Positions 24,071-52,198 of a DNA stretch of 64,000 nt are shown piece after piece; the first letter of the stretch is position 1; every line of letters begins with the position of its first letter. The position numbers and the translations under genes were made by a program. The stretch spans positions 117,501-181,500 of the forward strand of contig JASPKZ010007538.1 in assembly GCA_030220185.1 (NCBI GenBank), written 5' to 3'. The stretch is from Diploptera punctata (Eukaryota; Arthropoda; Insecta; Blattodea; Blaberidae). Below the pieces are notes generated by a model. That model saw only the letters and a list, made by a program, of their open reading frames with translations. It was not told where the DNA came from and made no database searches.

Positions 24071-24295
24071 TATATCCTCCATTCGTTTATTAATTTAAAT
24101 AAATTTACTATTTGAATTAACTTAATTAATACATTTGTATCAAGGACCACAGGTTGATAAACACTGGTTTGAATTAGATTTATAAAAGACCAGACATACC
24201 ATTACTTAAAATTAAAAATAAATTCTTAATTATAAAATTACAATAGGAAGTATTATGAAGTAAGATGAAAACAGATCTCAACTTGTTTATTAAAT

Positions 24296-26535: not shown

Positions 26536-26579
26536 CTGAAAAATTCAATATCTTAAAAATAAACAAAACTCTTCAAGAG

Positions 26580-26860
26580 TGAATTTCCCATTCCATTCCA
26601 TTAACGCAGTTTAACCTATCACCATTACAGGTACTTTTACGTGCCACACGCAACCCGGACCTTACAGTGGCACAACCTGTCGGGAGAGGCATTTTAACTA
26701 TGGACACATACATTAAAAATTATACACTATTCCCTCTTGGCCCCATTTCAATTAATTAAATTAATTTTACAATTAAAATTTTCAATGCTATCAGGTATTG
26801 AACACAGGTCTGCTAAGTAAGGAAGTAGGAATGCTACTATCTGAGCCAGCATGGTGGACT
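26580..26860 (-). repeat. tRNA-derived SINE-like copy, minus strand
   Basis: The minus strand reads TGGCTCAGATAGTAGCATTC (A-box-like) and GTGTTCAATACC (B-box-like) about 50 bases apart, followed by an AT-rich part and a body with GGTCCGGGTTGCGTGTGG. Family membership is uncertain. Confidence 0.45.
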
Positions 26861-27342
26861 TGACTCATTAAGTTTCTACCAGAATTTGTGTTTCATGCGT
26901 TTCAAGAGACACGGAAACTGATTAATTCTCCCCTCTCTTCTTTTACAAGCCAACAAATTAATTCCGTGATGTTTTTATTTTTATAAATTTAACATTTTGT
27001 ATTTCTAAGTACAATGAAACTCTGAAAGCCTAGAATATATAATATTAGGCTTTACTAGTTCCGAATTAAGTTCCAGTTGTACTGTAAACAAACTTCCATA
27101 AGGTATTAATCTGCCAACTCTGTCTATTGGGGAACTGTGGTGCTACTTTTACCCATCACATGACTGAATTGTGTACGGAACTGTCATCGATAGAAACATT
27201 GTTCTTAGGTAACATCATATTTTACGGGAAATAAGACTAAATATAAGATAAGATGGTACCAATAACTAGGAACTTCCTCCATTTCTTATTTATTTATGAC
27301 AAAAAAATATATAGAGTCTATATAATCATATGTTGACGCTTT
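26861..27342. other. Interval with no recognised feature
   Basis: AT-rich sequence with no supportable coding, repeat or splice structure. Confidence 0.35.
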
Positions 27343-27450
27343 TCTTGTTATTGAGTAGCTCAGATGGTAGAGCACTTGGACTAGAAAACCAAGGGTCCCG
27401 GGTTCAAGTCCCGGTCTGAGCGTATAATTTTTCTCTTCAAATATGATCGA
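27343..27450 (+). mobile_element. SINE5, short tRNA-derived SINE
   Basis: GTAGCTCAGATGGTAGAGC, an anticodon-arm-like region and CCGGGTTCAAGTCCCGG form a tRNA-like head. It continues into GCGTATAATTTTTCTCTTC. The same continuation follows the head on the minus strand at 43117-43020, so both belong to a SINE family rather than being tRNA genes. The 5' acceptor strand does not pair with the 3' strand. Confidence 0.7.
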
Positions 27451-27724
27451 TAGATATCCTTTATTTAAAATTTTCACCATGTCCTCAATGGCTAATTGGG
27501 ATATTTTCCACTAAACTGTTTGAAAACATTCAAAATTATTTGTTTCTCTTCGCTTTTCAAATGCTTTCCTTTCTGATGATTAGAAATTCTACAGAAGTGG
27601 CCATTTTGAAACAACTGAAATTCCAATGTAATCTGCATTACACAAGTGTAAGAATAAAGCTATGTTTATTTATTTTTTTATTTAGGAATATTCCACAATA
27701 CAGTGTTTCTGCTTCAACCCAAAG

Positions 27725-28010
27725 TGATTTGTCACCAGAGGTTCCTGTCTAAAGTATCTTCCCTCAAATCTCTAGCTTCCATACTTCTCTTCACTCCATC
27801 CATCCATCGTTCTCTAGGCCTGTCTCTTCCACTTCTTCCAGTAGCTTTCCAATTAAGGATCTTCTCTGGTATTCTCTCTTTTTCCATTCTTATGAGGTGT
27901 CCATACCATTTCAAACTTTTTCTCCTATTTTTCCTAATATGTTTTTTTCAATTTGCATATGTTCCCTTATTGTGCTGTTTCTGACCTTATCCCATCTTGA
28001 AATTTTTATT
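27725..28010 (-). mobile_element. RTE-like LINE 3' tail, minus strand
   Basis: The minus strand encodes EKSLKWYGHLIRMEKERIPE then GRSGRDRPRERWMDGVKRSM and LDRNLWR, matching the C-terminal architecture of RTE-like LINE proteins. RT is absent. Confidence 0.8.
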
Positions 28011-28598
28011 TAATGTATTAAAATTGTAATTATATATTTTAAGATTCTCCTGTATAACTTGTATAGACATGTGCTAGATAATATATATTTTAATTCCTTT
28101 ATTTTGAGTGTTAGAGAACAAACTACATTTTGTTATACGCTCAAAAGTAAAATCATTATTTGACCAATGAAAATGCAGTCATACATCTTGTTTGTTTACA
28201 TTACAACTGGAGCTTGGAATTAGTATAGTGTACATTTTGGTAAAGCTGCATCTTACTTCAGCAGAAGTGTTGCCCTTTCTTCAATGATGTTTAAAAGCAG
28301 GATAAGAAGGATTGTGTTTTATTTGCTTGGAGTACAAAACAGAGATGGTGAGTCCAAGCTATGTCCTGGAACTGAGGTCCTCAAAACCATATAGCATGTC
28401 AGCTGTTACAATATTAATATTCTCACCTGAGGTTCCTCAATGGATACTGTACGAAACTCCTGAACAAAAGATAATATATATACACAGAATGACGTATCGA
28501 CTATCCCCTCTGAAACTGTACTGGGACTACGTGCATCTCCCAGCCTCCGTCTTCAGGATACCACTTGCGAGGGTCATCCCCTGCAATAACAACACAAT
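28011..28598. other. Interval with no recognised feature
   Basis: The 133-codon plus frame at 28312-28713 overlaps the antisense of a PLE tail and is not considered a gene. The rest is AT-rich with nothing recognisable. Confidence 0.35.
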
Positions 28599-28599
28599 T

Positions 28600-29070
28600 T
28601 TAAATTTAAAAAAAATGTATCACCTCTCCTCATACTCTATCTTCTATTTAGACCAGTTTCGGAACAACATTCATTCCATCTTCAGTATTTTCACAACCAT
28701 TGCTCTATCATAATGATGCATGCTTCTTCCTCCATCTGTTGGTGAACTGATGAGCCTCCAAAACAAATCACTCTCTGGGAATTTCAAAATTCATTAATTT
28801 CTCCTTTTTGTTTTTTTGAATATATATATATATATTTTTCCCCCCAAACTTTAAGCTCTTTAAGTTTATCTACTTTTATTAATTTAGCCTTTCTTCTGAC
28901 CTAGTGTGAGCAGGTAATGGAGATAACAGTCTTAAAAATACTGAAGATGAAATTAATGTTGTCCTGAAACCAGTCTTAGTAGCTAAATAGAAGACACAAT
29001 ATGAGATGAGATGATACAACTTTTTAAAATTTAATATATACCTCATAGTGTTACTTCCTACATACATCAA
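28600..29070. mobile_element. PLE tail pair, head-to-head inverted (diverged)
   Basis: The minus copy at 28610-28700 reads CTGAAGATGGAATGAATG and TTCCGAAACTGGTC. The plus copy at 28930-29060 reads CTGAAGATGAAAT, GAAACCAGTC, GATGAGATGATAC and ACCTCATAGTGTTACTTCC. The space between includes an AT run at 28817-28831. Confidence 0.6.
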
Positions 29071-29107
29071 ACATACATAATTACTAATTAATATAACAAT
29101 AATATAT

Positions 29108-29998
29108 CCATATTTTATGGACTATAAGATGCAGCTTTTTCTTCGAAAAATTGCCGACAAAATTCAGGTGTGTCTTATTCTTGAAATTAATATAAAAATG
29201 TCCAGTGTTTGATTTAAAATTCCACCAGTCTTAAAAATGGCCATATATTTGATGCCGTGGGAATTATTTCTATCTGGCAATATTGGATATAACGGCTGGG
29301 TGATCCAACATGCTGACCACATGTCACTCCTACACTGGCTTCCCACCGATTGTCTACCTCTGTGATTAACACATGTGGATGTGAGGACAGCAGCTGGCTG
29401 GTCAGCCAAGGGCCTTCTACGCCGTCGTGCTTGGAGGTTTTTTTTAATATTGGATTCAACTGCCAGCAGCAGTGCACAAATGCGACAAACATGAGTTGCA
29501 GGAATTCACAAGCTGGCTAACACTGTCTCCCTCCCACACCACCATCACAAACCCAGAACACTGTCTAGCCTATGATGCGTCATTGCAGTCTACGATGCCA
29601 ATGAACTTGGATAAATGGATGATGGATGAAACCCAACATGATTTCACGCCGAACGAAGCTTTAAAACGACATACAATCAAACAAGTGTGTCAGTGGATAA
29701 AACAGTCGTGGTCTAGAGTGAGAGAAGACATATTATTGTTAAATCTTTCAAGAAGTGTGGCATAAGTAACGCTCTCGATGGCAGTGAAGACTATCTTATA
29801 CATGAAGAGGATGACGAAAAAGAAGAAGAAGAAAGTTCAGATGATGATTTTCAGGGATTTTAAAGATAAGAACAATTTTATAAACTAAGAACTTTTTTTA
29901 GTCTGGCTTTCCAATCTAATAATAAAAATGGTAAAAAATGTCATTTTTTTTAAATTGCTTAAAAATTAAGGTGTGTCTTATAGTCCGTAAAATATGGT
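29108..29998 (+). mobile_element. pogo-like DNA transposon remnant with nested SINE1 piece
   Basis: The ends are inverted: CCATATTTTATGGACTATAA near 29108 and TTATAGTCCGTAAAATATGG at 29998. The plus-strand interior at 29472-29862 encodes the C-terminal part of a pogo/jerky-type DDE transposase (KQVCQWIKQSW, then SFKKCGISNALDG and an acidic tail EEEESSDDDF). The catalytic core is missing. A SINE1 fragment (CTGACCACATGTCACTCC, CAGCAGCTGGCTGG) occupies 29283-29440. Confidence 0.75.
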
Positions 29999-29999
29999 A

Positions 30000-30600
30000 A
30001 TTAATATAATATATTAATTAAAATAAACTTAATAGTGTATCTTCCTTTAAATATTAAATAAACATAATTACTACTCATTCAATGTATGTGCATTTGACTT
30101 AGGGAGGGGTTCAGGAACATAGCATCTTCTCCCTAACAATCATTTACTGAATTAATTTATTCCAAATTCTTTCTTATTATTCTACTCATTTCTTATTAAA
30201 TTTATATCTAAAAATGATATTTGTCTGTTGATTTCAGTTTCCATTGTAAATTGATTTTTTTAGACATTAACACTATCAGGTATATTTTAAGAAAAATTAT
30301 ATCATCTCCACACCTCATATTCTTCTTCTTATTAATAAAAAATAAGGATATGAGGTGAGGTGAAACAATTTTTCTCAAATTCCAGTGTAAACTTTATTTT
30401 CAACAATTTTAAAGCATGCTCTACATTTTTTATGTTAAAATGTAATTATAACTTCAAAATAATAAGCCTTACTAACTATAATAGATTGCGTAAATTCTCC
30501 TTTGTGTCTACTTGAACTAGAAGCCATCCAATCGCACAGCTGGCTGCTTCAGATGTGTAGGATAATATATAAATAAAGGAAAACTGATGTTCATGCCAGA
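30000..30600. other. Mostly unrecognised, small palindrome at 30315-30365
   Basis: CACCTCATATTCTT and its reverse complement around 30320-30362 resemble the outermost ends of a PLE tail pair. Nothing else could be supported. Confidence 0.35.
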
Positions 30601-30604
30601 AGCC

Positions 30605-30680
30605 TGGATTAGTGTAATGGATAACAGGATACAAAGCTGGAGATTTAGGTTCAAATCCCAATTCAGGTATTAATTTTTTT
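30605..30680 (+). repeat. tRNA-like SINE head
   Basis: GGATTAGTGTAATGGATAAC (A-box-like) and TTAGGTTCAAATCCC (B box) are followed by a T-rich run. It is probably a SINE head. Confidence 0.5.
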
Positions 30681-30851
30681 TTACAAATTAATGATTCACC
30701 ATCTACATGTTTGTGATTCACCATCTACATGTTTGTGATTCGCAACAGCAATTATATCAACAACATTATCTACATCAAAATTAGAAAATTAAATACTGTG
30801 CATCACCACTACAGAACAAGAGTTGTCAAAATACTGAAGATGAAGTATTTA

Positions 30852-32179
30852 CGAGGTGTGATCAATAAGTTTCCGGAATGGCTTCAAAACAATTATGCCA
30901 TTGAGGAGTTTTTAATTTTCACCCAGGCTGTACACTCAGAATTTCCTTGTGATGAATTTGAGGGGTCGCGCGACCTTCTCTGACCTTGCAGTATGCTGGT
31001 AGAAGCTCTGAAATGAAGACGTGTTTTGTGCATGCGGCGATTTCTCTGTGTAGCAACAATGCGGGATTACGAGGAACGAAGAACATGCATCAAATTTTAA
31101 TTTAAACTTGGTAAAACTGCAACAGAAACATATCAAATGTTAAGAACAGCTTATGGGGAGGAAGCAATGGGTAAATCTCAAGCATTTGAGTGTTTTTCGA
31201 AATTTAAAAGGGGCGTGACATGGGTCAAGGATGAAAATCGTCTGGGATGACCAACTTCCAGCAAAACCAATAAAAATATCGATCGAGTGAGGGAAATGGT
31301 ATTAAATGATACGCACATTACAATACGAGAACTGTCTGATGCACTAGCACTCTCGTTTGGAAGTGTTCAAAGCATTTTGAAAGACGATTTGAACATGCGA
31401 AGAATTGCTGCGAAGTTCGTGCCCCGCCTCCTTTCAAATGACCAAAAGGAAAGTCGTGTGATTGCCTGCACAGATCTTAAAGAACAGCTTAAAAATGACC
31501 CACGGTTCATGGAAAAGGTTATTACTGGTGATGAAACATGGATTTATGGCTACGATCCAGAAACTAAACAACAGTCTTCGCAATGGAAGAGTCCTGCATC
31601 TCCACGCCCCAAGAAAGCCAGACAAGTTCGATTGAATGTGAAGTCAATGATAATTGTTTTTTTTGACATTAATGGAATTGTGCATAAGGAATTTGTACCA
31701 CAGGGTCAAACAGTGAATCAAGTGTACTACAAACAAGTGTTGCAAAGATTGAGGGAGAATGTGCGACGCAAACGGCCAGAGAAATGAGGACTGGTGACTG
31801 GTTCCTGCATCACGACAATGCGCCCGCGCATAAAGCAATTTCTGTCTGCCAGTTTTTGGACAAAAATAGGATGAGTACTGTTCCCCATCCAGCCTATTCT
31901 CCAGATCTGGCTCCAGCAGACTTTTTCCTGCTCCCACGGCTAAAAATTCGGCTCCGAGGACATCGTTTTGAGGACATTGATGTCATCCAGCGCGAATTGC
32001 AGAAGGCATTGGACACATTTAAAGAAGACGACTTCCAGAAGTGCTTCCAGCATTGGCAGAAGCGCTGGGACAAGTGTATCAACTCCCAAGGTGACTACTT
32101 TGAGGGTGACAGTGCTGAATAGAAACTTTGAAGTGTTGTGTTTATGGCCTCATTCCGGAAACTTATTGATCACACCTCG
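30852..32179 (+). mobile_element. mariner-family transposon, 1,328 bp, TA TSD
   Basis: The terminal inverted repeats are CGAGGTGTGATCAATAAGTT and its reverse complement ending CACACCTCG. TA occurs at 30850-30851 and 32180-32181. The size and single transposase ORF fit the mariner family. Confidence 0.95.
31059..32122 (+). pseudogene. mariner transposase (DD34D), broken by two stops and a frameshift
   Basis: It starts at ATG (MRDYEERRTCIKF) and encodes an N-terminal HTH (GKTATETYQMLRTAYGEEA), a second HTH (IRELSDALALSFGSVQSIL) and the catalytic triad. The first Asp is in TGDETWIYGYDPET, the second in WFLHHDNAPAH and the third in YSPDLAPADFFLLPRLK. Second-to-third spacing is 34 residues, as in mariner. 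Stops lie near codons 14 and 68, and a frameshift near 31785 separates the first Asp from the second. The total of about 350 codons is the usual mariner length. The copy cannot encode active transposase. Confidence 0.9.
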
Positions 32180-32279
32180 TATACTCTGAAACTGGTTCAA
32201 TTAAGACAACAAATTATAAGGTAAGGTGATTTTAAATTTAATACCTCACAGTGTCACTTCCTACTAAGTTTAAAAAAAA

Positions 32280-32520
32280 TCTTTTAACCTTTCATACAGT
32301 AACCTCAACAGTGACTCTTGACTTAAAAATATTGATAACTAACTGACTCTGTTACTTATACACTAATGCATAGGTGCATGCACTAAGGTCTTTCGCTAGT
32401 CGGACAAATACATGAAATTCATATCTCTAACATTCATTCCCTAACATCCATCTGAATATTATTATCCCATCTATGCCTACACTTTCCTATTGGACTTCTC
32501 CACAAGATTTCATTACTGTA
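32280..32520. other. Interval with no clear feature
   Basis: Possibly a decayed LINE A scrap near 32440-32510. Nothing firm could be supported. Confidence 0.3.
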
Positions 32521-32521
32521 C

Positions 32522-33175
32522 AGTCATCATCATCATCCTCTTATCATGACCTCCTTTCAGAAGGTCGATTCCAAATATGCCTCCAACCATCTCTATCTTC
32601 CCATGCTTTCCTTCTTTTTAGTTCTTCTCAGTTGTATCCTCTTTCTCGTAAACTTTTCTTCACTTGGGTAATCCATCTTTCTTGTGGTGGTTTTCTTGTA
32701 TCTTGAGATTTAACAATCTTTGTGGTAGTCTTTCCTTTTCCATTATTTTTTAAATGTCCAAACCATTTTAGTCTATTTTTTTATGTCTCTTGTTAATTTT
32801 TCTACATTTAATGTCTCCCTGAATTTGTCATTCCTTATTCTATCTCTCCTTGTTTTGTGTACCATTCCACTTAAAAATTTCATTTCTGTAGCTTGGATTC
32901 TGCTCAAGTCCTTCTTTGTATATGCCCAAGCCTCAGCAGCATGTTAGAACTGGTTTGAAATAAGTTTTATACATTGCCATTTTACTCTTGGTGGGTATAT
33001 CTTTATTCCACATTAATTGTTTAGTTAAATTATAGACTTTTAAACTTTTCTCTATTCTTTTACTGATTTCAGTCTGAAATTTCTCATTTGCATTTATCAC
33101 TGTCCCTAAATATGTAAATTTTTCCACTTTTTTTATAGATTTATGCCTGATTACTTAATATTCAAATCATTGTTC
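32522..33175 (-). mobile_element. RTE-like LINE 3' half, minus strand
   Basis: The minus strand encodes MEKFTYLGTVINANEKFQTE and KSKMAMYKTYFKPVLTC (RT thumb), then decayed tail residues, and ends in a (CATCAT)n tail at about 32525. It lies immediately 3' of DRAM-like exon 4. Confidence 0.75.
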
Positions 33176-33228
33176 TGGTTTCTACATATTTTCATGACAG
33201 TAATAGTACTTAAATAAAATGTACATAC

Positions 33229-33367
33229 CATGGAACTGAAGGTGTGAGATGACACCAGTTATGCTCAGAAGAATGAAGAACACCGTGCAGATCATAGCTA
33301 AACAAATTCTCATGTGTGCCATGAAGATGCTGTTCGCTAACGGATGTAAGTAATATGAGCAAATCGC
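33229..33367 (-). CDS. DRAM-like exon 4
   Basis: Acceptor TTTTGTGTGTTTCAG and donor GTATGT bound 139 bases. The exon encodes AICSYYLHPLANSIFMAHMR then ICLAMICTVFFILLSITGVI, one membrane segment, and ends in phase 1 (HLQFHG). The following exon was not found. Confidence 0.88.
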
Positions 33368-36300
33368 CTGAAACACACAAAACATATTCACATGAATTTT
33401 AAAAACTGGATATGACAGTTAGTTCTGAATCTCAAGATGTGAGAGGAAATTTAATGATACAATAAGCCATGCCGACTTCCTAACTAACATAACAAACCTT
33501 GTCGGAGATGCAAGTTTTGGAGCTGAGGTTAATAGCTGAGGAAATGCATGGTATTTGTAATCTTTAATAGATGGCAGCAAAATCATCTTGGAGTCACACA
33601 AATTTAACAGCACGCAGACAATACATTTGCTTATCAGATAATGCAAAAATTCAGATTTTGCTCTTGAATAGAGTTGTTATACAGTTTCTGTGTTGCAGAG
33701 TTTTTTTTTTTTTTTTTTGAACTACTAACCAAGGAATGAGTGAATATAAACATGCAATTCTCAACAGCTTCATATATAGATTATTAAATGTTCCACTAAA
33801 TAAACAAGATTTTAAGAAAGAATACAATCACATTTTGAACATAGCTAATTTAAATGGTTTTGGAAAGGAAATAATTATAAATAAATTAAAGAAATTCAGG
33901 TAACAAAAAAAAATTAAAAGAATACACCACCCTGCAATCTGATTCAAAGAAAAGAAAACAATTCAAGAAAATTGCTTATCATCCTAAAATATATAACAAA
34001 TTAAAAAAAAATTCAAGAAATTCAACATCCCAGATAGTAAAAAATCTGCAATTTATCAAATTAGTTGTAAAGACTGCAATAAAGTATACATAGGAAAAAC
34101 AAAAAGGAATTTGGACACTCGCACAAAGGAACACTTTAGAAATATTAAAAGTGGTGAAATTGAAAAATCAGCTATTCCAGCACATAGTTTGTTGGAGAGT
34201 CATAAAATTTTAAAGAGGCTAAACTTTTAAAACATTTGGGAAAAAAACTTTAGAATTGACAGTTTGGGAGAAGATGTATATTCAGAACAAATTTAGATCC
34301 ATGAATTTCGAAATTCCTGATGAACAGGACTTGTTCTCAAAGTTCACCAAATCAATATGAGATGGCAATGTTATAGATGGAAATTCCAATGAAAATCCGG
34401 TAGTCATAATATCGGATGAAAATTGGAGGGATGTTCCTCTTGAAAACTGCAGTTCCTGTGTTTAAGAAAACATAAACTATGTGGTAAGATAAGAAATTAC
34501 TCATTCATTCATTGTACATAAACTCACCTGAATCCAAATGTAAACAGTTCCAAGGCCGAAACACAGGAAGGCACCAGTGAGGTGAACTATAATAACATTA
34601 GTCTCCTGGAAGTTGGCAACGAGACTCAATCCAAAGCAGGATATAAAACCAATCCACATGGCAATTTTGTTATGCTTCATTATAGTTGCAGGCAGAGCAT
34701 AACTTTTACAATATTCGTCGATCTGCCTGTATCTAATGTAGATCACTAAAACCACTGAAACAAACAATATCCACACATTCAACTATTGTATCATTTATTT
34801 ATTTTTATTATCGTAACAGGCCTTGGCCTAATACTTGGAAGGAAGAAGAAGATTTATTTTTATTTAAAAAAATGGGATCCCGAAATCCAGAAATTGGTAA
34901 GAGATAAAAAGGAGGCCTACTTAAAATACTTAAACAACAAGAATGACCAAAACAGAATAGAATATAATAGAACAAGAGCATTAGTAAAAAAAAAAAAAAA
35001 TTAAATAGAGAACAATGGGATAGATACATAGCAGAAATGGAACACAATTTACACGGAAGACAAGACAAAGTATATCAATTTATAAGAAGCCTTAATTCTG
35101 AAGTAAAAGACAAAACAAATTTCTTAACTATACAAGATATAGAACTTAAAAAATTATTATAAAGAACTGTGGACGGACAAATAAAATAAAGAAGAAATAA
35201 CACACCTAGAAACAAACGAACAATATGCAGAACTAGATGAATTAGAGATGCAAGAAATTATAGAAATATTAAAGAAATGTAAAAATAATAAAGCATACGG
35301 GATAGTCAATATAAACATAGAATTGATAAAAAAAGTCCCAAAGAATTTTCAAGAAAGATTATTAAAATTCTATAACAAGTGCTGGAAACAAAATACAATA
35401 CCAGAAGAATGGAAAAATAATCTATCTATCTATCTATCTTTGGGTTTTTACAGCTGCTGCCGTCTTCCCGTGCCAAACCTCCAAAGCCTACGGTCTTGGG
35501 CATCTTCGATGCTTAGCCCTCTAGCTTGCATTACTGTCTTCATTTTTCCTTCCATGTTAACTTTGGTCTCCCTCTTTTCTTCTTTCTGTTCGGATGCCAT
35601 TCATATAGTTGCTTCGGGCATCGCTCATCTTCCATTCTTAAAACATGCCCTAACCACTTTAATTCCTTCTCCTCAATTTTTTCAATTGTGCTTTCTTCTG
35701 CTTCCATTATGTTTCTAATTTCCTTATTTGTGACATGTTCTAATTTAGACTTTTCTGGCACTTCTGCATAAATAATCCATTTCTAGAGCTATTAGAATAT
35801 TCTTGTAGTACTTATTGATTGTTCATACCTCACTTCCAAACACATTGTAATAGATTCCACCAATGTTTTACCAATATTTTTTTTGTGTCTAATCTCAATA
35901 TTTAAAAAAGGTGATAAAACAAAGCCAGAAAACTATAGAGGCATAAGCTTACTATGTGCAGCATATAAAATATATGCAAAAATGATCAACCAAAGATTAA
36001 CAACCATAGTAGACGCAATAATATCAGAAGAGCAGACAGGTTTTAGGAAAGGAAGAAGCTGCACAGACAACGTATTCACTTCAAAACAAATAATAGAGAA
36101 ACGAAGAGAATTCAACTTAGAGACGCACATCCTCTTTATAGATTATAAGATGGCCTTTGATAAAGTGTCTAGACCAAAATTATGGAACATATTAAGTGAA
36201 AAAGGAATTCCACTACATTTGATATCAGTAATTAAGAAAATGTATAAGAAAATAAAAATAAATCAAAGGGAACCAATACATATGAGGAGCATCATTTCAA

Positions 36301-39850: not shown

Positions 39851-42800
39851 ATTATGTGAAATGTTAAACTGATCCAGAAATGCATTGTTAGGAATAAGTT
39901 GACTTACATAAAACGGTGCCGCTATTCATGAGTTGTCCAAACACACAGCTCTCTGGTGAATGTGTGGCCGCATCGCTGATGTACGGGAAGTCAGGTTCCA
40001 CATGTCCTAACAATACAGCAGCTATGTATCTGTTAAGTAAAATCATAATCCTTATTTTAAACTTAGTACAAGTAAAACTATGAGGTTAATCTAATATATA
40101 AAAATCAATGTTTGTTTGTTTGTTTGTTTGTTCGTATTCTATGTGCAGCCATACCGTTAATCCAATTTTTATGGGTTTTTTGCAAAATGTTCAGGAGATT
40201 CCCGGGATGAACATAGGCTATATCAGAGTTGTGATACTCAACCCATTCACCCCTAAAAATCACCCTTTTTAGTGAAAAACGCGAAATAAAGTCCCTATTT
40301 TGATGCTTAAATGGCTTACGCTACCTAATCCGTAACAAATACACCAAATTCATGTACACAGAATTGAATATCTCAAAAAACTCTACAAAAAAGTTTATGA
40401 CAGCATATGTTTATCTTTTACGGATAACTCACAATAACCATTTTTGTCTTTCATTGATGCCAAGAAGATCGGGATAAGTAGATTCCCAGGCAAGCATGTT
40501 CTGCCATACTGTTCATCCGATTGAGATGGGGCTTTTGAAAAATGTTCAGGAGATTCCGGGGATGAACATAGGCTATACGAGAGATGTAATACTCACCCCT
40601 TCACCACTAAAAATCACCCTTTGTAGTGAAAAACGTGAAATAAAGTCCCTATTTTGACACTTAGCACGCCGTGGCATAGTGGTTATTGTACTGAGTTACA
40701 AGCCGGAGGGTCGAGGGTTCAAGTCCCGTTAGGGTCAGGATTTTTAAACTGACCCAAACCCTCTGGCGGCACTATGGCCCTGGGGTCGATTCAGCCTCTA
40801 ACGGAAATGAGTACCAGATGCTTGTTCTGGGGTAAAGGTGGCCGTCATGCAGGGCTGACAACCTGGCTGACATAAAGTGCTGATTGTCTAGAAAAAGTGA
40901 AAAAGTGGGAGCCTTAACCTCCTACTACCCCAAGGGCCTCCGGGCCTGTTGTGGGATCACTTTATTTTGACACTTAAATGGCTTACACTGCCTAAACCAT
41001 AACAAATACACCAAATTAATGTACACAGAATTGAATATCACAAAAAAGTCTGTGACAGCATATGGATAACTCACAATAACGATAAGAAGATTGGAATAAG
41101 CAGATTCCTGGGCAAGCATAACAGCGCACGGCTGGTGGCAAAAACACATTAACATTTATTTAGGAGTAGCAGCACACGCCAGGTATTAGCTAGTTATTAA
41201 TAAATATCATCTCACTTCATGTTTTATTTTCTTTTTAGAGCAGTTACTCCACCTTCAGTATTTTCTCTACCGTTGTTTTGTTGTCATTACAGTGGGTTAC
41301 ATGATCTTTATAGGAAACCAGATATAATAAGAACAGTTAAGTCTTATAGACTGCAATTGGCAGGACATGTGGCACAAATGGGGAATGAAAGAGAAGCATG
41401 GTAGTTTCTTGTAAGAAAACCAGAAGGAAAACAGCTAGATCAATAATGAGGTGGGAGAATAACATTAATCATGAATGAGAGAAATAGATTATACAGGGGA
41501 TGAATGGAAAATAATAGCTCAGGACAGGGATGAGCCTATGGGTTCAATAGTGTCAGTCAGTTAGTTTTGTTGTGGTGATGCACAGTTTCTTCCTCCATCT
41601 GTTGATAGACCGATGAACCTCCAAATCAAATCATTGGAAATTTCAGGGGAATGTGATTTGATTTGATGGTTTCCAACAGATGGAAGAAGAAATTGTGCAT
41701 CACCAAGACAAAATAATGTTGGGAAAAGAGTGAAGATGGAGTATTTGCTCCAAAACCAGATGAAAAAAAAAATTAAGTGAGGTGATATTTAAATATTGTT
41801 TATTTTCTTTCTTCACTCACCTCATACTTCTTAACTCCCACACATACTCAAGTTTCGTCACTTCATTTGTGACATTCTCAATGCTGTATTATGTTCACAA
41901 CTGATGTCACAAATGAATATAATACAGCATTGAGAATGTCACAAATGAAGTGACGAAACTCGAGTATGCGGTAGGAGTTAAGAAGTATGAGGTGAGTGAA
42001 GAAAGAATAAACAATATTAAAATAAACCTCATAGTGTTATTTCCTATCTGCATAACTTAAGAGGTGATATTTATTGATATTATTTTTTTTTAAATCATGA
42101 TCAATAATGTACTTAATTAATTAATTAAACAATTTTAATGTCTCTTTGTAATTATGATCTGACATATTTTGTGGTTATTTTGTTACATATTTATAAGACA
42201 ATTCTACATAAAAACCCAGCCTCTACTTATCATTGACTTCAGGTTTGGAACATTTTAGTCCTCATTTCTATCTTCATAATTGTATTTTCGTAATGTTACA
42301 AAGCATCTATTAAAACAAATACAGGATGTCTCTATAGTCACTATTCATTTCCATGAAAACACTACTACTTTTTTTCTTTACTTTGCATACACTATTAGCT
42401 TAGTGCAACATGTTTTGCAAGGAAGAACGGGTTGCAATTACAACCAACAAACCAATTAATTCAATTTCTAAACTATTCTTTATGCAACCAAAATAATAAT
42501 TTCATCTTCCAAAATTCAATGTTTGTACACATGGGTACACAGATTGTCAAAATGAAGTTGCCAGAATTGAATTTACCCATAAATTCCGAAAACCAGCCTC
42601 AACAAAGGCACGTATTCGTCTGCTTGTAAACAAATTTAAGCGTACAAGTAGTGTGTGTGATGAGGCATGACCATGTGTACCAGCAGAAACTGTGCAGCAG
42701 GTTAAAATTGCCAGTGATAGTCCGAAAGCATCAATTTGACACCTCAGTAGGGAGTTGAATGCACATTGCAAGTGTAGAAAATTCTACATTTTCAATCTAC

Positions 42801-45800
42801 AAAAAATGCCTTTATCATGTATGTTTGATTTACAGAATTGTATCACAGAAGCAGCTGGTTTTATTACAGTTTAAATGTTAAGGTCTACATTTCGTTTCAC
42901 AGCTGAAAGATGGAGGAGTATGTGTTTTCACCTAGATGGCAGTCATGTAGAAAGACAGTAAAATATATGTAAAACTTCACAATAATATTGATTTTTCAAT
43001 CATTGCATTCCTTATATTTGAAGAGAAAAATTATATGCTCAAACTGGGGTTTGAACCAGAACCTTTCGTACTCTAGGTGAATGCTCTACCAAGTGAGCTA
43101 TATGAGAAATTCCAATCTAAACACAAATTTTCCTCTTATATACGCTGTTAATTCCCATGCACCAAATACTACGAAGCCTTTGCTGTGTGATCTAGCAAAT
43201 GGAGGCTTCTTTATTAACACATTCAGTACCAGGCACTGAGCAGGGCATTTAAACCCACAGGCCAGCTATTTAAATACCCCAGCTACCCTTTTCGTGGCAC
43301 TTCAGAAAATAGACCATTATTCACAAACTATTAGTCCTAGAAAATTCAAATTTTGTACATACCTAAAGGAGATATCCTAGTAGGATTTGATGGTAAGATA
43401 ACTTGGGTGATTGACATCACATAGTATCGGTGTATCAATTTCAGGAAGTGGAAGTTCATCTTCACTTTCAACCTTGTGAATCTTCTTATTCATGAATCAG
43501 TTGTTTGTCGCCTGAATCATCATTATACAAAATATTCACTAATTCTTCTTCAGTGAGACATTTTTCTTTCGCCATGGTTTCACTCACGCACAAAGAACAG
43601 CGCGATAAGGAGAAACAAATACGACTGCATTGGAGACTGGAGACAAGTTTGGGTGAACGAATTCCATGTGTTGTTTGTTTAAAAAATAAAAGGGGATTCA
43701 TCAAGGTTAAACGTGTCAAACGGGAATAGAAAATGTACATTTACATGCCATCTATGATCTCCAAGACATACTAAGCCAACACAATATTTAGGCGCTGAAT
43801 ATAAATGCGGTTTGTTCACGCCCGCTCTAAAGCAATTTATCTGACCGACGGCCGCATACACAATAGTCTCTAAACGCCTTAACTGGTTTACGATACTGAA
43901 TGTGTTAAGAAGACCTTAAACTGGGAATTTTAAATTACATTATAAAGCCAATACGGCTTTTTTTATGTTTTTATTATTCATTTGTTTATTGAAATGGATA
44001 GTGGGAAATAGTAAATTCATTTATCTACCTTGGATATACAATAACATATCTGGATGAAGTAGACATAGCAAATAAAATTATTAATTTTAATAAAACCATG
44101 AGAATAATAAATTCAGTAATGAAACCTTCGCTAGTCCAGAGAGATACCATAATACGTATACAAAACCTTAGCAAGACCTGAACTTTGCTACGGCAGTGAG
44201 GCATGGACTATGAGGAAAGGAGAAGAGAGCAGGATAACTTCTAGTGAAATGAGATTCATGAGATACACAGCAGGATATACCAAATGGGATCACAAACGCA
44301 ATTATGTTATCTTGAAGGAACTACGTTTAGAACTGGTCATTGAATACATAGATACCAGAACAACTGGATGAATCATTTGTGATGAATGAGTTCAGAAAGA
44401 GTTCCCAAGGCCATGCTTCTTCATTGTCCAATAGGGAAGAGATCTCTGGGCCATCCAAGGAAACGCTGAATACAAAATTGATCAGTGAGATCATAACAGG
44501 CCTAAGACTTGGTTGTATGAAGATGAAGAAATGGATAGTGACTTTAGAGACATCCTGTATTTATTTAATAAGTAGCCTTATTATATACTTACGTTCAATA
44601 GGGAAGAGATCTCTGGGCCATCCAAGGAAACGCTGAATACAAAATTGATCAGTGAGATAATAACAGGCCTAAGACTTGGTTGTATGAAGATGAAGAAAGA
44701 ATGGATAGTGACTTTAGAGACATCCTGTATTTATTTAATAAGTAGCCTTATTATATACTTACGTCCAATAGGGAAGAGATCTCTGGGCCATCCAAGGAAA
44801 CGCTGAATACAAAATTGATCAGTGAGATAATAACAGGCCTAAGACTTGGTTGTATGAAGATGAAGAAAATGGATAGTGACTTTAGAGACATCCTGTATTT
44901 ATTTAATAAGTAGCCTTATTATATACTTACGTCCAATAGGGAAGAGATCTCTGGGCCATCCAAGGAAACGCTGAATACAAAATTGATCAGTGAGTAGATA
45001 ATAACAGGCCTAAGACTTGGTTGTATGAAGATGAAGAAATGGATAGTGACTTTAGAGACATCCTGTATTTATTTAATAAGTAGCCTTATTATATACTTAC
45101 GTCCAAAAGGGAAGAGATCTCTGGGCCATCCAAGGAAACGCTGAATACAAAATTGATCAGTGAGATAATAACAGGCCTAAGACTTGGTTGTATGAAGATG
45201 AAGAAATGGATAGTGACTTTAGAGACATCCTGTATTTATTTAATAAGTAGCCTTATTATATACTTACGTCCAATAGGGAAGAGATCTCTGGGCCATCCAA
45301 GGAAACGCTGAATACAAAATTGATCAGTGAGATAATAACAGGCCTAAGACTTGGTTGTATGAAGATGAAGAAATGGATAGTGACTTTAGAGACATCCTGT
45401 ATTTATTTAATAAGTAGCCTTATTATATACTTACGTCCAATAGGGAAGAGATCTCTGGGCATCCAAGGAAACGCTGAATACAAAATTGATCAGTGAGATA
45501 ATAACAGGCCTAAGACTTGGTTGTATGAAGATGAAGAAATGGATAGTGACTTTAGAGACATCCTGTATTTATTTAATAAGTAGCCTTATTATATACTTAC
45601 GTCCAATAGGGAAGAGATCTCTGGGCCATCCAGGAAACGCTGAATACAAAATTGATCAGGAGATAATAACAGGCCTAAGACTTGGTTGTATGAAGATGAA
45701 GAAATGGATAGTGACTTTAGAGACATCCTGTATTTTTTAATAAGTAGCCTTATTATATACTTACGTCCAATAGGGAAGAGATCTCTGGGCCATCCAAGGA

Positions 45801-48800
45801 AACGCTGAATACAAAATTGATCAGTGAGATAATAACAGGCCTAAGACTTGGTTGTATGAAGATGAAGAAATGGATAGTGACTTTAGAGACATCCTGTATT
45901 TATTTAATAAGTAGCCTTATTATATACTTACGTCCAATAGGGAAGAGATCTCTGGGCCATCCAAGGAAACGCTGAATACAAAATTGATCAGTGAGATAAT
46001 AACAGGCCTAAGACTTGGTTGTATGAAGATGAAGAAAGAAATGGATAGTGACTTTAGAGACATCCTGTATTTATTAATAAGTAGCCTTATATATACTTAC
46101 GTCCAATAGGGAAGAGATCTCTGGGCCATCCAAGGAAACGCTGAATACAAAATTGATCAGTGAGATAATAACAGGCCTAAGACTTGGTTGTATGAAGATG
46201 AAGAAATGGATAGTGACTTTAGAGACATCCTGTATTTATTTAATAAGTAGCCTTATTATATACTTACGTCCAATAGGGAAGAGATCTCTGGGCCATCCAA
46301 GGAAACGCTGAATACAAAATTGATCAGTGAGATAATAACAGGCCTAAGACTTGGTTGTATGAAGATGAAGAAATGGATAGTGACTTTAGAGACATCCTGT
46401 ATTTATTTAATAAGTAGCCTTATTATATACTTACGTCCAATAGGGAAGAGATCTCTGGGCCATCCAAGGAAACGCTGAATACAAAATTGATCAGTGAGAT
46501 AATAACAGGCCTAAGACTTGGTTGTATGAAGATGAAGAAATGGATAGTGACTTTAGAGACATCCTGTATTTATTTAATAAGTAGCCTTATTATATACTTA
46601 CGTCCAATAGGGAAGAGATCTCTGGGCCATCCAAGGAAACGCTGAATACAAATTGATCAGTGAGATAATAACAGGCCTAAGACTTGGTTGTATGAAGATG
46701 AAGAAATGGATAGTGACTTTAGAGACATCCTGTATTTATTTAATAAGTAGCCTTATTATATACTTACGTCCAATAGGGAAGAGATCTCTGGGCCATCCAA
46801 GGAAACGCTGAATACAAAATTGATCAGTGAGATAATAACAGGCCTAAGACTTGGTTGTATGAAGATGAAGAAATGGATAGTGACTTTAGAGACATCCTGT
46901 ATTTATTTAATAAGTAGCCTTATTATATACTTACGTCCAATAGGGAAGAGATCTCTGGGCCATCCAAGGAAACGCTGAATACAAAATTGATCAGTGAGAT
47001 AATAACAGGCCTAAGACTTGGTTGTATGAAGATGAAGAAATGGATAGTGACTTTAGAGACATCCTGTATTTATTTAATAAGTAGCCTTATTATATACTTA
47101 CGTTCCAATAGGGAAGAGATCTCTGGGCCATCCAAGGAAACGCTGAATACAAAATTGATCAGTGAGATAATAACAGGCCTAAGACTTGGTTGTATGAAGA
47201 TGAAGAAATGGATAGTGACTTTAGAGACATCCTGTATTTATTTAATAAGTAGCCTTATTATATACTTACGTCCAATAGGGAAGAGATCTCTGGGCCATCC
47301 AAGGAAACGCTGAATACAAAATTGATCAGTGAGATAATAACAGGCCTAAGACTTGGTTGTATGAAGATGAAGAAATGGATAGTGACTTTAGAGACATCCT
47401 GTATTTATTTAATAAGTAGCCTTATTATATACTTACGTCCAATAGGGAAGAGATCTCTGGGCCATCCAAGGAAACGCTGAATACAAAATTGATCAGTGAG
47501 ATAATAACAGGCCTAAGACTTGGTTGTATGAAGATGAAGAAATGGATAGTGACTTTAGAGACATCCTGTATTTATTTAATAAGTAGCCTTATTATATACT
47601 TACGTCCAATAGGGAAGAGATCTCTGGGCCATCCAAGGAAACGCTGAATACAAAATGATCAGTGAGATAATAACAGGCCTAAGACTTGGTTGTGAAGATG
47701 AAAGAAAATGGATAGTGACTTTAGAGACATCCTGTATTTATTTAATAAGTAGCCTTATTATATACTTACGTCCAATAGGGAAGAGATCTCTGGGCCATCC
47801 AAGGAAACGCTGAATACAAAATTGATCAGTGAGATAATAACAGGCCTAAGACTTGGTTGTATGAAGATGAAGAAATGGATAGTGACTTTAGAGACATCCT
47901 GTATTTATTTAATAAGTAGCCTTATTATATACTTACGTCCAATAGGGAAGAGATCTCTGGGCCATCCAAGGAAACGCTGAATACAAAATTGATCAGTGAG
48001 ATAATAACAGGCCTAAGACTTGGTTGTATGAAGATGAAGAAATGGATAGTGACTTTAGAGACATCCTGTATTTATTAATAAGTAGCCTTATTATATACTT
48101 ACGTCCAATAGGGAAGAGATCTCTGGGCCATCCAAGGAAACGCTGAATACAAAATTGATCAGTGAGATAATAACAGGCCTAAGACTTGGTTGTATGAAGA
48201 TGAAGAAATGGATAGTGACTTTAGAGACATCCTGTATTTATTTAATAAGTAGCCTTATTATATACTTACGTCCAATAGGGAAGAGATCTCTGGGCCATCC
48301 AAGGAAACGCTGAATACAAAATTGATCAGTGAGATAATAACAGGCCTAAGATTGGTTGTATGAAGATGAGAAGAAATGGATAGTGACTTAGAGACATCCT
48401 GTATTTATTTAATAAGTAGCCTTATTATATACTTACGTCCAATAGGGAAGAGATCTCTGGGCCATCCAAGGAAACGCTGAATACAAAATTGATCAGTGAG
48501 ATAATAACAGGCCTAAGACTTGGTTGTATGAAGATGAAGAAATGGATAGTGACTTTAGAGACATCCTGTATTTATTTAATAAGTAGCCTTATTATATACT
48601 TACGTCCAATAGGGAAGAGATCTCTGGGCCATCCAAGGAAACGCTGAATACAAAATTGATCAGTGAGATAATAACAGGCCTAAGACTTGGTTGTATGAAG
48701 ATGAAGAAATGGATAGTGACTTTAGAGACATCCTGTATTTATTTAATAAGTAGCCTTATTATATACTTACGTCCAATAGGGAAAGAGATCTCTGGGCCAT

Positions 48801-51016
48801 CCAAGGAAACGCTGAATACAAAATTGATCAGTGAGATAATAACAGGCCTAAGACTTGGTTGTATGAAGATGAAAGAAATGGATAGTGACTTTAGAGACAT
48901 CCTGTATTTATTTAATAAGTAGCCTTATTATATACTTACGTCCAATAGGGAAGAGATCTCTGGGCCATCCAAGGAAACGCTGAATACAAAATTGATCAGT
49001 GAGATAATAACAGGCTAAGACTTGGTTGTATGAAGATGAAGAAATGGATAGTGACTTTAGAGACATCCTGTATTTATTTAATAAGTAGCCTTATTATATA
49101 CTTACGTCCAATAGGGAAGAGATCTCTGGGCCATCCAAGGAAACGCTGAATACAAAATTGATCAGTGAGATAATAACAGGCCTAAGACTTGGTTGTATGA
49201 AGATGAAGAAATGGATAGTGACTTTAGAGACATCCTGTATTTATTTAATAAGTAGCCTTATTATATACTTACGTCCAATAGGGAAGAGATCTCTGGGCCA
49301 TCCAAGGAAACGCTGAATACAAAATTGATCAGTGAGATAATAACAGGCCTAAGACTTGGTTGTATGAAGATGAAGAAATGGATAGTGACTTTAGAGACAT
49401 CCTGTATTTATTTAATAAGTAGCCTTATTATATACTTACGTCCAATAGGGAAGAGATCTCGGGCCATCCAAGGAAACGCTGAATACAAAATTGATCAGTG
49501 AGATAATAACAGGCCTAAGACTTGGTTGTATGAAGATGAAGAAATGGATAGTGACTTTAGAGACATCCTGTATTTATTTAATAAGTAGCCTTATTATATA
49601 CTTACGTCCAATAGGGAAGAGATCTCTGGGCCATCCAAGGAAACGCTGAATACAAAATTGATCAGTGAGATAATAACAGGCCTAAGACTTGGTTGTATGA
49701 AGATGAAGAAATGGATAGTGACTTTAGAGACATCCTGTATTTATTTAATAAGTAGCCTTATTATATACTTACGTCCAATAGGGAAGAGATCTCTGGGCCA
49801 TCCAAGGAAACGCTGAATACAAAATTGATCAGTGAGATAATAACAGGCCTAAGACTTGGTTGTATGAAGATGAAGAAATGGATAGTGACTTTAGAGACAT
49901 CCTGTATTTATTTAATAAGTAGCCTTATTATATACTTACGTCCAATAGGGAAGAGATCTCTGGGCCATCCAAGGAAACGCTGAATACAAAATTGATCAGT
50001 GAGATAATAACAGGCCTAAGACTTGGTTGTATGAAGATGAAGAAATGGATAGTGACTTTAGAGACATCCTGTATTTATTTAATAAGTAGCCTTATTATAT
50101 ACTTACGTCCAATAGGGAAGAGATCTCTGGGCCATCCAAGGAAACGCTGAATACAAAATTGATCAGTGAGATAATAACAGGCCTAAGACTTGGTTGTATG
50201 AAGATGAAGAAATGGATAGTGACTTTAGAGACATCCTGTATTTATTTAATAAGTAGCCTTATTATATACTTACGTCCAATAGGGAAGAGATCTCTGGGCC
50301 ATCCAAGGAAACGCTGAATACAAAATTGATCAGTGAGATAATAACAGGCCTAAGACTTGGTGTATGAAGATGAAGAAATGGATAGTGACTTTAGAGACAT
50401 CCTGTATTTATTTAATAAGTAGCCTTATTATATACTTACGTCCAATAGGGAAGAGATCTCTGGGCCATCCAAGGAAACGCTGAATACAAAATTGATCAGT
50501 GAGATAATAACAGGCCTAAGACTTGGTTGTATGAAGATGAAGAAATGGATAGTGACTTTAGAGACATCCTGTATTTATTTAATAAGTAGCCTTATTATAT
50601 ACTTACGTCCAATAGGGAAGAGATCTCTGGGCCATCCAAGGAAACGCTGAATACAAAATTGATCAGTGAGATAATAACAGGCCTAAGACTTGGTTGTATG
50701 AAGATGAAGAAATGGATAGTGACTTTAGAGACATCCTGTATTTATTTAATAAGTAGCCTTATTATATACTTACGTCCAATAGGGAAGAGATCTCTGGGCC
50801 ATCCAAGGAAACGCTGAATACAAAATTGATCAGTGAGATAATAACAGGCCTAAGACTTGGTTGTATGAAGATGAAGAAATGGATAGTGACTTTAGAGACA
50901 TCCTGTATTTATTTAATAAGTAGCCTTATTATATACTTACGTTCCTAAAAATGTGCAAGGGAATATCACAAATATAGCTAGTGGTAAGAGATGTACTCTT
51001 TCATAGGCCATTATTC
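33229..51016 (-). CDS. DRAM-like autophagy modulator membrane protein gene (4 exons seen, 3' end missing)
   Basis: Exons 51016-50941, 40029-39908, 34754-34528 and 33367-33229 join in phase through GT-AG introns to give about 186 residues. The protein starts MAYERVHLLPLAIFVIFPC (signal-anchor-like first membrane segment) and continues with HVEPDFPYISDAATHSPESC, IYIRYRQ, CFGLSLVANFQET and GTVYIWIQ. The PYISD, PE.C(L/V)FG and G.S.VANFQ signatures, with a further 2-3 membrane segments, match the DRAM/TMEM150/Frag1 family. DRAM proteins are six-pass lysosomal membrane proteins of about 240-270 residues, so 60-80 C-terminal residues are still missing. No convincing last exon was found below 33229; it may lie outside the window or be hidden. 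No host-gene neighbour is evident. Confidence 0.85.
33700..34490 (+). mobile_element. PLE (RT end plus GIY-YIG) in DRAM-like intron 3
   Basis: The plus strand encodes SFIYRLLNVPLNKQDFKKEY, then AIYQISCKDCNKVYIGKTKR and RTKEHFRNIKSGEIEKSAIP, with frameshifts. This is the same RT-tail plus GIY-YIG order as other PLEs here. It is a single, non-dimeric copy preceded by an oligo-T run and lies antisense to the gene. Confidence 0.8.
34528..34754 (-). CDS. DRAM-like exon 3
   Basis: Acceptor ATATTGTTTGTTTCAG and donor GTGAGT bound 227 bases. The exon encodes VLVIYIRYRQIDEYCKSY, then KIAMWIGFISCFGLSLVANF and HLTGAFLCFGLGTVYIWIQ, covering two membrane segments. The G.S.VANFQ motif is the strongest family match. 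It ends in phase 0. Confidence 0.92.
35424..35889 (-). mobile_element. RTE-like LINE tail nested in LINE B
   Basis: The minus strand encodes SKLEHVTNKEIRNIMEAEES, KWLGHVLRMEDERCPKQLYE and KRGRPKLTWKEKM, with a (GATA)n 3' tail at 35424-35441. TAATCT on each side is a probable TSD. Removing it rejoins the LINE B PEEWKNN and FKKGDK segments. Confidence 0.85.
36284..38304 (-). mobile_element. 2,021-bp TIR transposon carrying a DUF7869-type gene, ATAT TSD
   Basis: The termini are GAGGAGCATCATTTCAAACC at 36284 and, in reverse, GAGGAGCGTCGTTTCAAACC at 38304. The inverted match extends to about 31 bp through ATATTATGTCC with two mismatches. ATAT flanks both sides (36280-36283, 38305-38308). Removing the element and one ATAT restores the LINE B reading P-I-H-I-T-G-G-V-R-Q-G-C-P, so the ends are exact. 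The internal motif GGACATAATACGGTTTG recurs at 36481 and 38126, echoing the terminal repeat, as transposase-binding subterminal repeats do. Confidence 0.9.
36727..37954 (-). pseudogene. DUF7869-type transposon protein, internally deleted and frameshifted
   Basis: It begins at ATG 37954 with a basic N-terminus (MDECVNMGDNSRGSRRKQKR). The part from about 37640 down gives LQQVQSLPKLSINEAYYSRQ, then GQNRNMHVVHVMAFYLLNNG and LFIPVRGHSFLPADRIFGII, which match the hallmark GQN(R/K)N and (G)HSF(L/I)P.D..FG..E motifs of DUF7869 proteins. A C-terminal piece (FIRELSAVPPISKVTEAKQS, LLRRRFGEDWRDENILQFYN) ends at 36727. Proteins with this domain are common in arthropod repeats and suspected to be transposases. 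The frame is broken at least three times and the N-terminal half is largely missing. Confidence 0.7.
39175..39530 (-). mobile_element. LINE C-terminal fragment, minus strand
   Basis: The minus strand gives WNWWNWIGHSLRK-like and LGKLGSNQ-like residues, in the order of a LINE tail with a GH.LRK signature. It is decayed. Confidence 0.55.
39533..39846 (+). repeat. Dispersed repeat, LINE 3'-UTR-like with (TA)n tail
   Basis: It contains AAACCTCCACTTCTAATTGT, TCATCAAAATCGGTCCAGTC and AGTGACAAACACACATACAG before a TA run. It is the same family as 13010-13452 and ends about 60 bp from DRAM-like exon 2. Confidence 0.7.
39908..40029 (-). CDS. DRAM-like exon 2
   Basis: Acceptor TTACTTAACAG and donor GTAAGT bound 122 bases. 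The exon completes the split Thr codon from exon 1 and encodes YIAAVLLGHVEPDFPYISDA then ATHSPESCVFGQLMNSGTVL, the first lumenal loop with the family PYISD and PESC signatures. It ends in phase 1. Confidence 0.9.
40090..41193 (+). mobile_element. Non-autonomous Helitron with internal duplication
   Basis: It begins TCTAATATATAAAAATCAAT and ends TATTAGCTAG. The bases are A before and T after, the standard Helitron insertion context. A (GTTT)n run follows the start. A ~360-bp segment with TTCAGGAGATTCC(C/G)GGGATG is present twice in tandem (about 40135-40495 and 40500-41110). No Rep/helicase ORF is present. A SINE is nested in the second repeat. Confidence 0.8.
40664..40962 (+). mobile_element. 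SINE2, tRNA-derived, 14-bp TSD, inside the Helitron
   Basis: A box CGTGGCATAGTGG and B box GAGGGTTCAAGTCCC are followed by the body TCTGGCGGCACTATGGCCC. TATTTTGACACTTA occurs at 40650-40663 and 40963-40976. A diverged relative lies at about 54020-54190. Confidence 0.9.
41210..41795. mobile_element. PLE tail pair with a LINE A fragment inserted in one arm
   Basis: The left (minus) arm, 41213-41285 plus 41571-41640, and the right (plus) arm, 41645-41795, share GATGCACAGTTTCTTCCTCC and its reverse, CATCTGTTG, and ATCATCTCACTT outer ends. The LINE A 3' fragment (about 41295-41570) encodes DIIRTVKSYRLQLAGHVAQM and ends GTCAGTTAGTT. Confidence 0.7.
41805..42012. repeat. ~208-bp palindrome, 90-bp arms
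   Basis: The arms carry CACCTCATACTTCTTAACTC, TTTCGTCACTTCATTTGTGA and ATTCTCAATGCTGTATTAT and their reverse complements, with an ~25-bp loop. The outer ends match the PLE tail, so it is probably a miniature PLE dimer. Confidence 0.85.
43020..43117 (-). mobile_element. SINE5 copy, minus strand
   Basis: The minus strand reads TAGCTCACTTGGTAGAGCAT, a B box CTGGTTCAAACCCC and GAGCATATAATTTTTCTCTT, collinear with 27343-27450. Confidence 0.7.
43218..43904 (-). mobile_element. piggyBac-like deletion derivative, 687 bp, TTAA TSD
   Basis: TTAA at 43214-43217 and 43905-43908 flank inverted ends CACATTCAGTACC and GATACTGAATGTG. The minus strand has an ATG at 43575 starting MAKEKCLTEEELVNILYNDD then SGDKQLIHE, resembling the acidic N-terminus of piggyBac-like transposases. 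The catalytic core is absent. Confidence 0.85.
44004..44527 (+). mobile_element. LINE B 3' end inserted in the Tc1-like right terminal repeat, 13-bp TSD
   Basis: The plus strand gives YLGYTITYLDEVDIANKIIN, INSVMKPSLVQRDTIIR, YGSEAWTMRKGEESR, MRFMRYTAGYTKWDHKRNYV and CPIGKRSLGHPRKR, then AACAGGCCTAAGACTTGG and GAAGATGAA. GAAATGGATAGTG at 43991-44003 repeats at 44528-44540. Its 3' terminal ~100 bp is the first part of the satellite unit. Confidence 0.9.
44426..50940. repeat. 167-bp satellite, ~39 tandem copies, in DRAM-like intron 1
   Basis: The unit starts GTCCAATAGGGAAGAGATCT and ends TTATTATATACTTAC. Spacing measured at several junctions (46268, 46435, 46602) is exactly 167, and 6,515 bp gives about 39 units. 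Units are nearly identical, with scattered 1-4 bp indels. The unit is (a) LINE B 3' tail, (b) the remainder of a Tc1-like terminal repeat including the 13-bp TSD, and (c) the first ~35 bases of DRAM-like intron 1 with its GTAAGT donor (seen as ACTTAC on plus). The last unit joins exon 1 directly. Open frames inside the array are repeat artefacts. Confidence 0.97.
50941..51016 (-). CDS. DRAM-like exon 1 (start codon at 51011)
   Basis: The minus strand has TTTTAATTTTCAG then GAATA and ATG at 51011-51009. The frame MAYERVHLLPLAIFVIFPCT continues to GGA-AC followed by donor GTAAGT (50940-50935). There are 71 coding bases, leaving phase 2. The upstream AG suggests a separate 5'-UTR exon. The donor abuts the 167-bp satellite directly. 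Confidence 0.85.
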
Positions 51017-51066
51017 CTGAAAATTAAAATATACATTATTCATAGTATAAACTCTAAACAGAATAT

Positions 51067-52187: not shown

Positions 52188-52198
52188 AAACAGAATAT

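Follow-up and report, generated by a model that had tools for sequence, protein, structure and literature searches.

The window analysed here is a 64,000-nucleotide stretch of Diploptera punctata DNA. On its minus strand lies a DRAM-like gene, whose six coding exons were located by comparison with homologs (51011 to about 26407), and the intron between the first two coding exons carries a tandem array. The features of the gene and the array are as follows.

50941..51016, minus strand: first coding exon, assigned by homology, ending in AGGAAC (CDS 51011-50941)
50933..50940, minus strand: authentic 5' splice site GTAAGTAT, at the end of unit 39
40030..50940, minus strand: intron between the first two coding exons, 10,911 bp, 60% of it array
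44426..50940, no strand: tandem array of 39 units
39908..40029, minus strand: second coding exon
26407..34754, minus strand: range of the remaining DRAM coding exons (34754-34528, 33367-33229, 28581-28427 with a disrupted frame, and about 26535-26407)

The DRAM-like gene and its intronic array

The first coding exon translates to MAYERVHLLPLAIFVIFPCTFLGT and joins in frame to the exon at 40029-39908. The product of exons 1-4 (186 codons, 187 aa as submitted) matched the Pfam family Frag1/DRAM/Sfk1 (E 3e-40). It was 90% identical to a DRAM2-like protein of Periplaneta americana over 100% of the query, with the exon 1/2 junction included, and 88% identical to the Zootermopsis homolog; the N-terminus differs in one termite model (P0092, Coptotermes). 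The in-frame join, the Pfam match and the homologs spanning the junction support the initial annotation in assigning 50941-51016 to a DRAM-like gene. Its description as exon 1 of the mRNA is less secure, because a 3'-splice-site-like sequence, TTTTAATTTTCAG, identified by sequence match only, ends at 51017, directly above the exon. The exon may thus be the first coding exon and not mRNA exon 1.

In exon 5 (28581-28427) the frame is disrupted, and W211 and A214, which are common to the four compared homologs, are both changed. Relatives carry intact homologs. Either an assembly error or decay of the gene may lie behind the disruption. Over the columns in which four homologs have the same residue, changes private to one protein numbered 3/140 for this gene, 2/139 for P. 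americana and 8/145 for Zootermopsis. Unique changes over the whole protein (3/140) show no clear excess, and decay of the DRAM gene is not supported.

Just upstream of the DRAM coding exon lies a palindrome (51110-52189, arms 91% alike) with a GIY-YIG ORF (E 7e-5), which we take to be perhaps a Penelope-like element. The sequence CTGATGATGGGACTAGTCCCGAAAGGC occurs at 52073 on the plus strand and at 51200 on the minus strand, and it resembles the core of a hammerhead ribozyme. An Rfam search beside the exon at a relaxed threshold reported no hammerhead; it gave 11 miRNA-family matches on a palindrome, each below its gathering score. Palindromes were also seen at 60978-61796, where the near-perfect structure (arms 99.3% identical) is an inverted duplication of very recent date or else an artefact of long reads, and at 41778-42031, which is shorter (arms 88% alike).

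The array at 44426-50940 consists of 39 head-to-tail units of about 167 bp (lengths 164-170 bp, 25/39 exactly 167). TRF reported a period of 167, 39.0 copies and 98% matches over 44426-50942, which confirms the array of about 39 units that had been placed at 44426..50941, in its coordinates as well. As also claimed, every unit ends in the gene's own donor: GTAAGTAT is kept at the minus-strand end of 39/39 units, and the last unit is fused to the exon, unit 39 running into the DRAM coding exon. The GTAAGTAT of unit 39 is the donor of this exon and the 38 others are extra. The statement that the intron carries about 39 donor copies therefore holds for the repetition itself, and is better worded as 38 extra donors and one authentic donor, with the whole unit repeated. 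The longer sequence CCTTATTATATACTTAC has 38 mismatch-free occurrences versus 0.03 expected from shuffles; the end of unit 10 has lost one base within it.

The units are highly uniform. Identical copies make up 22 of the 39, and there are 18 distinct sequences overall. Across all units, 28 departures from the consensus were counted, 3 substitutions and 25 small indels, after 10 of the 13 substitutions in the raw alignment had been traced to one misaligned stretch of unit 20 and re-read as indels. Five indels are 2-4 bases long, and three of these are slippage-like insertions in or beside a GAA tract. The unit alignment contained no variants common to blocks of units, as a higher-order repeat would have, and the few shared ones are at slippage-prone places. 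Variants are rarer toward the exon and commoner at the LINE side, a weak trend (rho -0.36, one-sided permutation p 0.013; 0.014 with hand counts). The donor is no better conserved than the remaining unit, with 0 events observed over 312 bp where 1.34 were expected (P 0.26), so selection on the donor is not shown.

So few differences between units allow two readings: the expansion took place very recently, or the array is uniform and the indels come from sequencing error. Judged from the units themselves, the array is most likely young. It is unlikely that the array is real at low copy number only and owes its length and uniformity to long-read assembly. Such an artefact would explain why 25 of the 28 differences are small, mostly private indels, like residual long-read error; the frame disruption in DRAM exon 5 and the 99.3% palindrome at 60978-61796, which could itself be a read artefact, would agree with it. 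However, the five indels of 2-4 bases, three of them at the GAA tract, look like slippage, and a very young real array would likewise have uniform units.

Composition of the unit and origin of the array

The 167-bp unit is a chimera of about 102 bp of LINE 3' end, about 32 bp of inverted repeat and at most 33 bp of intron start. The corresponding features in the last unit and beyond the array are listed below.

50774..50875, plus strand: LINE 3' end in the last unit (ORF end, 3' UTR and GAAGATGAA tail)
44004..44425, plus strand: what is left in single copy of the 5'-truncated LINE, its frame continuing into unit 1
43991..44003, plus strand: left target-site duplication of the LINE, GAAATGGATAGTG
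50876..50907, minus strand: 32-bp inverted repeat of a DNA-transposon-like element, in the last unit, with the LINE target-site copy at 50876-50888
42320..42351, plus strand: inverted-repeat partner tacaggatgtctctatagtcactattcatttc, of the element hit by the LINE insertion
50908..50940, minus strand: intron start in the last unit, up to 33 bp, the border being our reading

By our reading of the boundaries, about 134 of the 167 bp are transposable-element sequence, and the donor stands at one end of the duplicated segment. The initial view of a satellite built around the donor is therefore not upheld.

The LINE, followed from 44014 to unit position 105, matched a copy at 23843-23315 (65% over 533 bp, E 1e-53), and further matches were found at 38636-39156 (57%, E 5e-12) and 22637-22308 (59%, E 2e-12). 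The unit alone matched the 3' end of the first copy (23417-23315; 72% over 104 bp, E 9e-12). The end of the LINE ORF, ..PKAMLLHCPIGKRSLGHPRKR*, spans 44425/44426 in frame and resembles the ..PRGRRSLGRPMKRW of the other copy. RVT_1 was detected in ORFs overlapping or adjoining two LINE copies, at 38292-38693 (E 4e-16) and at 23628-24083 (E 9e-5, under the Pfam cut-off). Pfam searches with two pieces of the LINE remainder gave no reverse-transcriptase match and none above the cut-off, with one chance-level viral match (E 0.05). The 13-bp target-site duplication GAAATGGATAGTG is present at 43991-44003 and at unit positions 103-115, and it is the longest word common to 43931-44050 and the unit.

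Immediately upstream of the donor, 36 units read TTGGAC, and the hexamers TGGAAC, TTGAAC and AGGAAC (the exon) occur once each. A prefix of TTGGAC or TTGGAAC had been described as resembling the exon end. TTGGAC holds for the 36 units, but the prefix is LINE sequence in which only GGAC is like GGAAC, and a copied exon end is ruled out.

Unit positions 103-161 aligned with 42351-42293 as an inverted repeat (80% over 59 bp, E 1e-9), with 30/32 bases equal in the core. The alignment reaches within 6 bp of the donor, and because it runs almost to the donor, the border between element and intron is our own reading. Pfam had no match for an 87-aa read-through translation taken from inside the inverted-repeat element, so the element is called DNA-transposon-like only and its superfamily is left unnamed. 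When the LINE and the array were removed in silico, the match across the empty site scored 42.5 versus at most 27 in 300 shuffles. This score is partly an A+T-rich extension, because only about 8 bases of the match lie beyond the insertion point and its outer flank happens to continue into exon sequence.

Other mobile-element traces were seen in the window. A transposase fragment at 17927-18823 (Pfam DDE_Tnp_1_7, E 2e-51) is presumably piggyBac-like. Rfam tRNA matches were obtained at 43036-43107 on the minus strand and 27358-27422 on the plus strand; the similarity between them (80% over 89 bp) makes tRNA-derived SINEs a possibility.

Unit 1 passes without a break into the LINE remainder, as does unit 39 into the exon. 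Because the outer units run on in this way, the single-copy ancestor is readable and the array should have grown in place. Recent in-place tandem amplification, giving an array that is mostly a tolerated passenger, is probably the best overall explanation. Three layers are visible in the sequence itself. An inverted-repeat pair of a DNA-transposon-like element lies in the DRAM intron, one repeat starting about 33 bp past the donor; a 5'-truncated LINE sits in that repeat with a 13-bp target-site duplication; and the terminal 167 bp, which begin within the LINE 3' end and stop at the first intron base, occur in 39 head-to-tail copies. The nesting of the elements suggests the order of element into intron, LINE into element, 167-bp duplication and expansion. 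The starting event may have been an illegitimate duplication by template switch or end joining, and the array would have expanded very recently by recombination or a replication burst. The duplication junction has 2 bp of exact microhomology, which 18% of random breakpoint pairs equal or exceed. Because this is at chance level, the mechanism of the duplication is not established, and the microhomology was rejected as proof of it.

In-place amplification leaves one coincidence unexplained, namely that the breakpoint lies within 2 bp of the exon-intron border. An RNA-templated origin, in which a reverse-transcribed intron lariat or circle seeded the array, would fit this border, since one end of the unit is the exon-intron border within the 2-bp ambiguity and the unit starts at intron +1. 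The other border (CTATTGGAC then AATGAAG), judged by eye only, is not branch-site-like, and we regard this origin as very improbable. It is also hardly to be expected that a library satellite from elsewhere in the genome was inserted in the intron, because at one end of the array the LINE remainder leads unbroken and in frame into unit 1, and at the other end unit 39 leads straight into the exon. Outside the array, the matches to the unit in the window were two LINE copies and the partner of the inverted repeat, all three diverged, and a single 28-bp match at chance level.

Splicing and polyadenylation signals in the units

The initial annotation had suggested that the repeated donors could act as a U1 snRNP sink, could slow or reroute splicing, or could be neutral. 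Base pairing to the 5' end of U1 is predicted at -7.6 kcal/mol in all 39 cases, true donor and copies alike; of 6021 GT sites outside the array, counted on both strands, 98 scored as well or better. At position -3 the true donor has A, and 36/38 decoys have G. By donor statistics, A at -3 gives a slight advantage, which favours the true donor. If the exon is read beyond the true donor, the frame closes immediately with a TAA, and the extended exon codes for 24 residues. Heavy decoy use should thus be harmful.

The units also offer potential acceptors. The consensus unit contains the acceptor-like TTTTGTATTCAG 40 nt before the next donor. Two YAG sites with a pyrimidine content of 0.65 are present per unit (40 and 20 nt before the next donor), with a background of 0.42 per 167 bp. 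The true acceptors have a pyrimidine content of 0.53-0.65 (exon 5 scored one base off), and the YAG sites of the unit are at or above these values. Among the 9 AG sites per unit, 6 lead to frame-breaking pseudo-exons, 2 of the other 3 have a stop, and the last gives only 18 nt. Because most AG sites give frame breaks or stops, heavy use of pseudo-exons should be harmful too.

When identical 5' splice sites compete in minigenes, exon definition gives preference to the exon-proximal site (Carranza et al. 2022, accessible part of PMC9225289), and intron definition to the opposite one (Reed & Maniatis, cited in the same part of PMC9225289). The decoys in the array could probably bind U1, and exon definition should favour the true donor, as it lies closest to the 3' splice site upstream. 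Two features speak for this outcome, the length of the intron (10.9 kb) and the 3'-splice-site-like sequence that precedes the exon.

It is possible, although doubtful, that the decoys are used as in the human IFI6 gene, with the exon ending at a downstream copy or with 40-nt (or 76-nt) pseudo-exons included, which would give truncated, decay-prone mRNAs and a DRAM output that falls proportionally with copy number. The predicted U1 pairing of all decoys, equal to that of the true donor, and the two YAG sites per unit, with pyrimidine content at or above the true acceptors, would allow such use, and in IFI6 isoforms two downstream repeat units do serve as donors, according to the accessible part of PMC4526556. 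Against it, exon definition predicts the exon-proximal site (PMC9225289, same part), read-through stops immediately, and the AG sites of the unit break the frame, hold a stop or give 18 nt. Some leakage to decoys or 40-nt pseudo-exons is plausible, and the array is probably, for the most part, a tolerated passenger.

The intron copy in the units also contains a putative polyadenylation signal. AATAAA starts 25-27 nt after the donor's G in 38/39 units; at the frequency found on the remainder of the strand, 6.5 kb would contain about 11 copies, versus the 38 in the array. The 39 donors are spaced 164-170 nt apart. For Drosophila, the accessible part of PMC4889658 gives a median reach of about 500 nt for the protection of downstream polyadenylation sites by U1 bound at a donor. 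The array could on this basis be a U1 depot, in which U1 loaded every 167 nt, within that range, would protect the polyadenylation signals of the intron by telescripting; a shortage of U1 would turn the AATAAA copies into premature ends, and expression would depend on U1 dose. The spacing and the regular pairing of donor and AATAAA agree with this proposal, but one event co-amplified both signals, so their pairing needs no function, and one locus could presumably not sequester U1 cell-wide. We consider a depot quite improbable. A broader proposal, that host donor and polyadenylation signal make this transposon-derived satellite a copy-number-variable regulator, array length setting the U1 load and hence early ends, decoy skipping or correct splicing of DRAM transcripts, is conceivable from the sequence and still a long shot.

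Comparison with known systems

If the origin proposed above is right, the array is a satellite near its birth whose ancestry is legible, from the element to the LINE insertion with target-site duplication to the tandem duplication, and host splice signals can be swept into satellites. It would also be a natural extreme of donor choice, among dozens of equal donors in a row. The work with two donors found opposite preferences under intron and exon definition (PMC9225289, accessible part), and the exon-proximal prediction is testable here on one endogenous transcript.

The nearest precedent is in the human gene IFI6 (6-16). Its minisatellite, described by Turri, Cuin & Porter in 1995, reportedly consists of some 26 repeats of 12 bp, each hardly longer than a donor, that start near the exon end. 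As in IFI6, a tandem repeat offers multiple splice donors in one transcript: the donor match is present in every repeat (39/39), and by homology the array lies at a real exon-intron border, where unit 39 joins the DRAM coding exon. In contrast to the IFI6 units, which are said to be about 12 bp and donor-only, and which are used as donors, the Diploptera array has 39 units of 167 bp with predicted donors, about 134 bp of each unit being transposon-derived. The initial annotation knew of no described satellite around a host splice donor. For repeated donors IFI6 is a precedent; a transposon-derived satellite with a captured host donor was not found among the matches listed in the literature search, nor was any satellite with a splice donor besides IFI6, a weak negative as subscription papers were mostly outside its coverage.

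The array also resembles the constructs of Reed & Maniatis and of Carranza et al. 2022, in which like donors compete in cis; these have two engineered donors, whereas the array has 39 natural ones (accessible part of PMC9225289).

In its composition the array is closest to satellites that arose from LINE 3' ends, such as the common cetacean satellite (L1 3' end) and chicken HinfI (CR1), as reported in the accessible part of PMC9659126. The unit has homology to a non-LTR retrotransposon 3' end, and as in these satellites a segment from a LINE 3' end was amplified head to tail. While the cetacean and HinfI units are described there as transposon-derived (PMC9659126, same part), the Diploptera unit includes a host splice donor, sits in a gene, and has an ancestor that is still readable.
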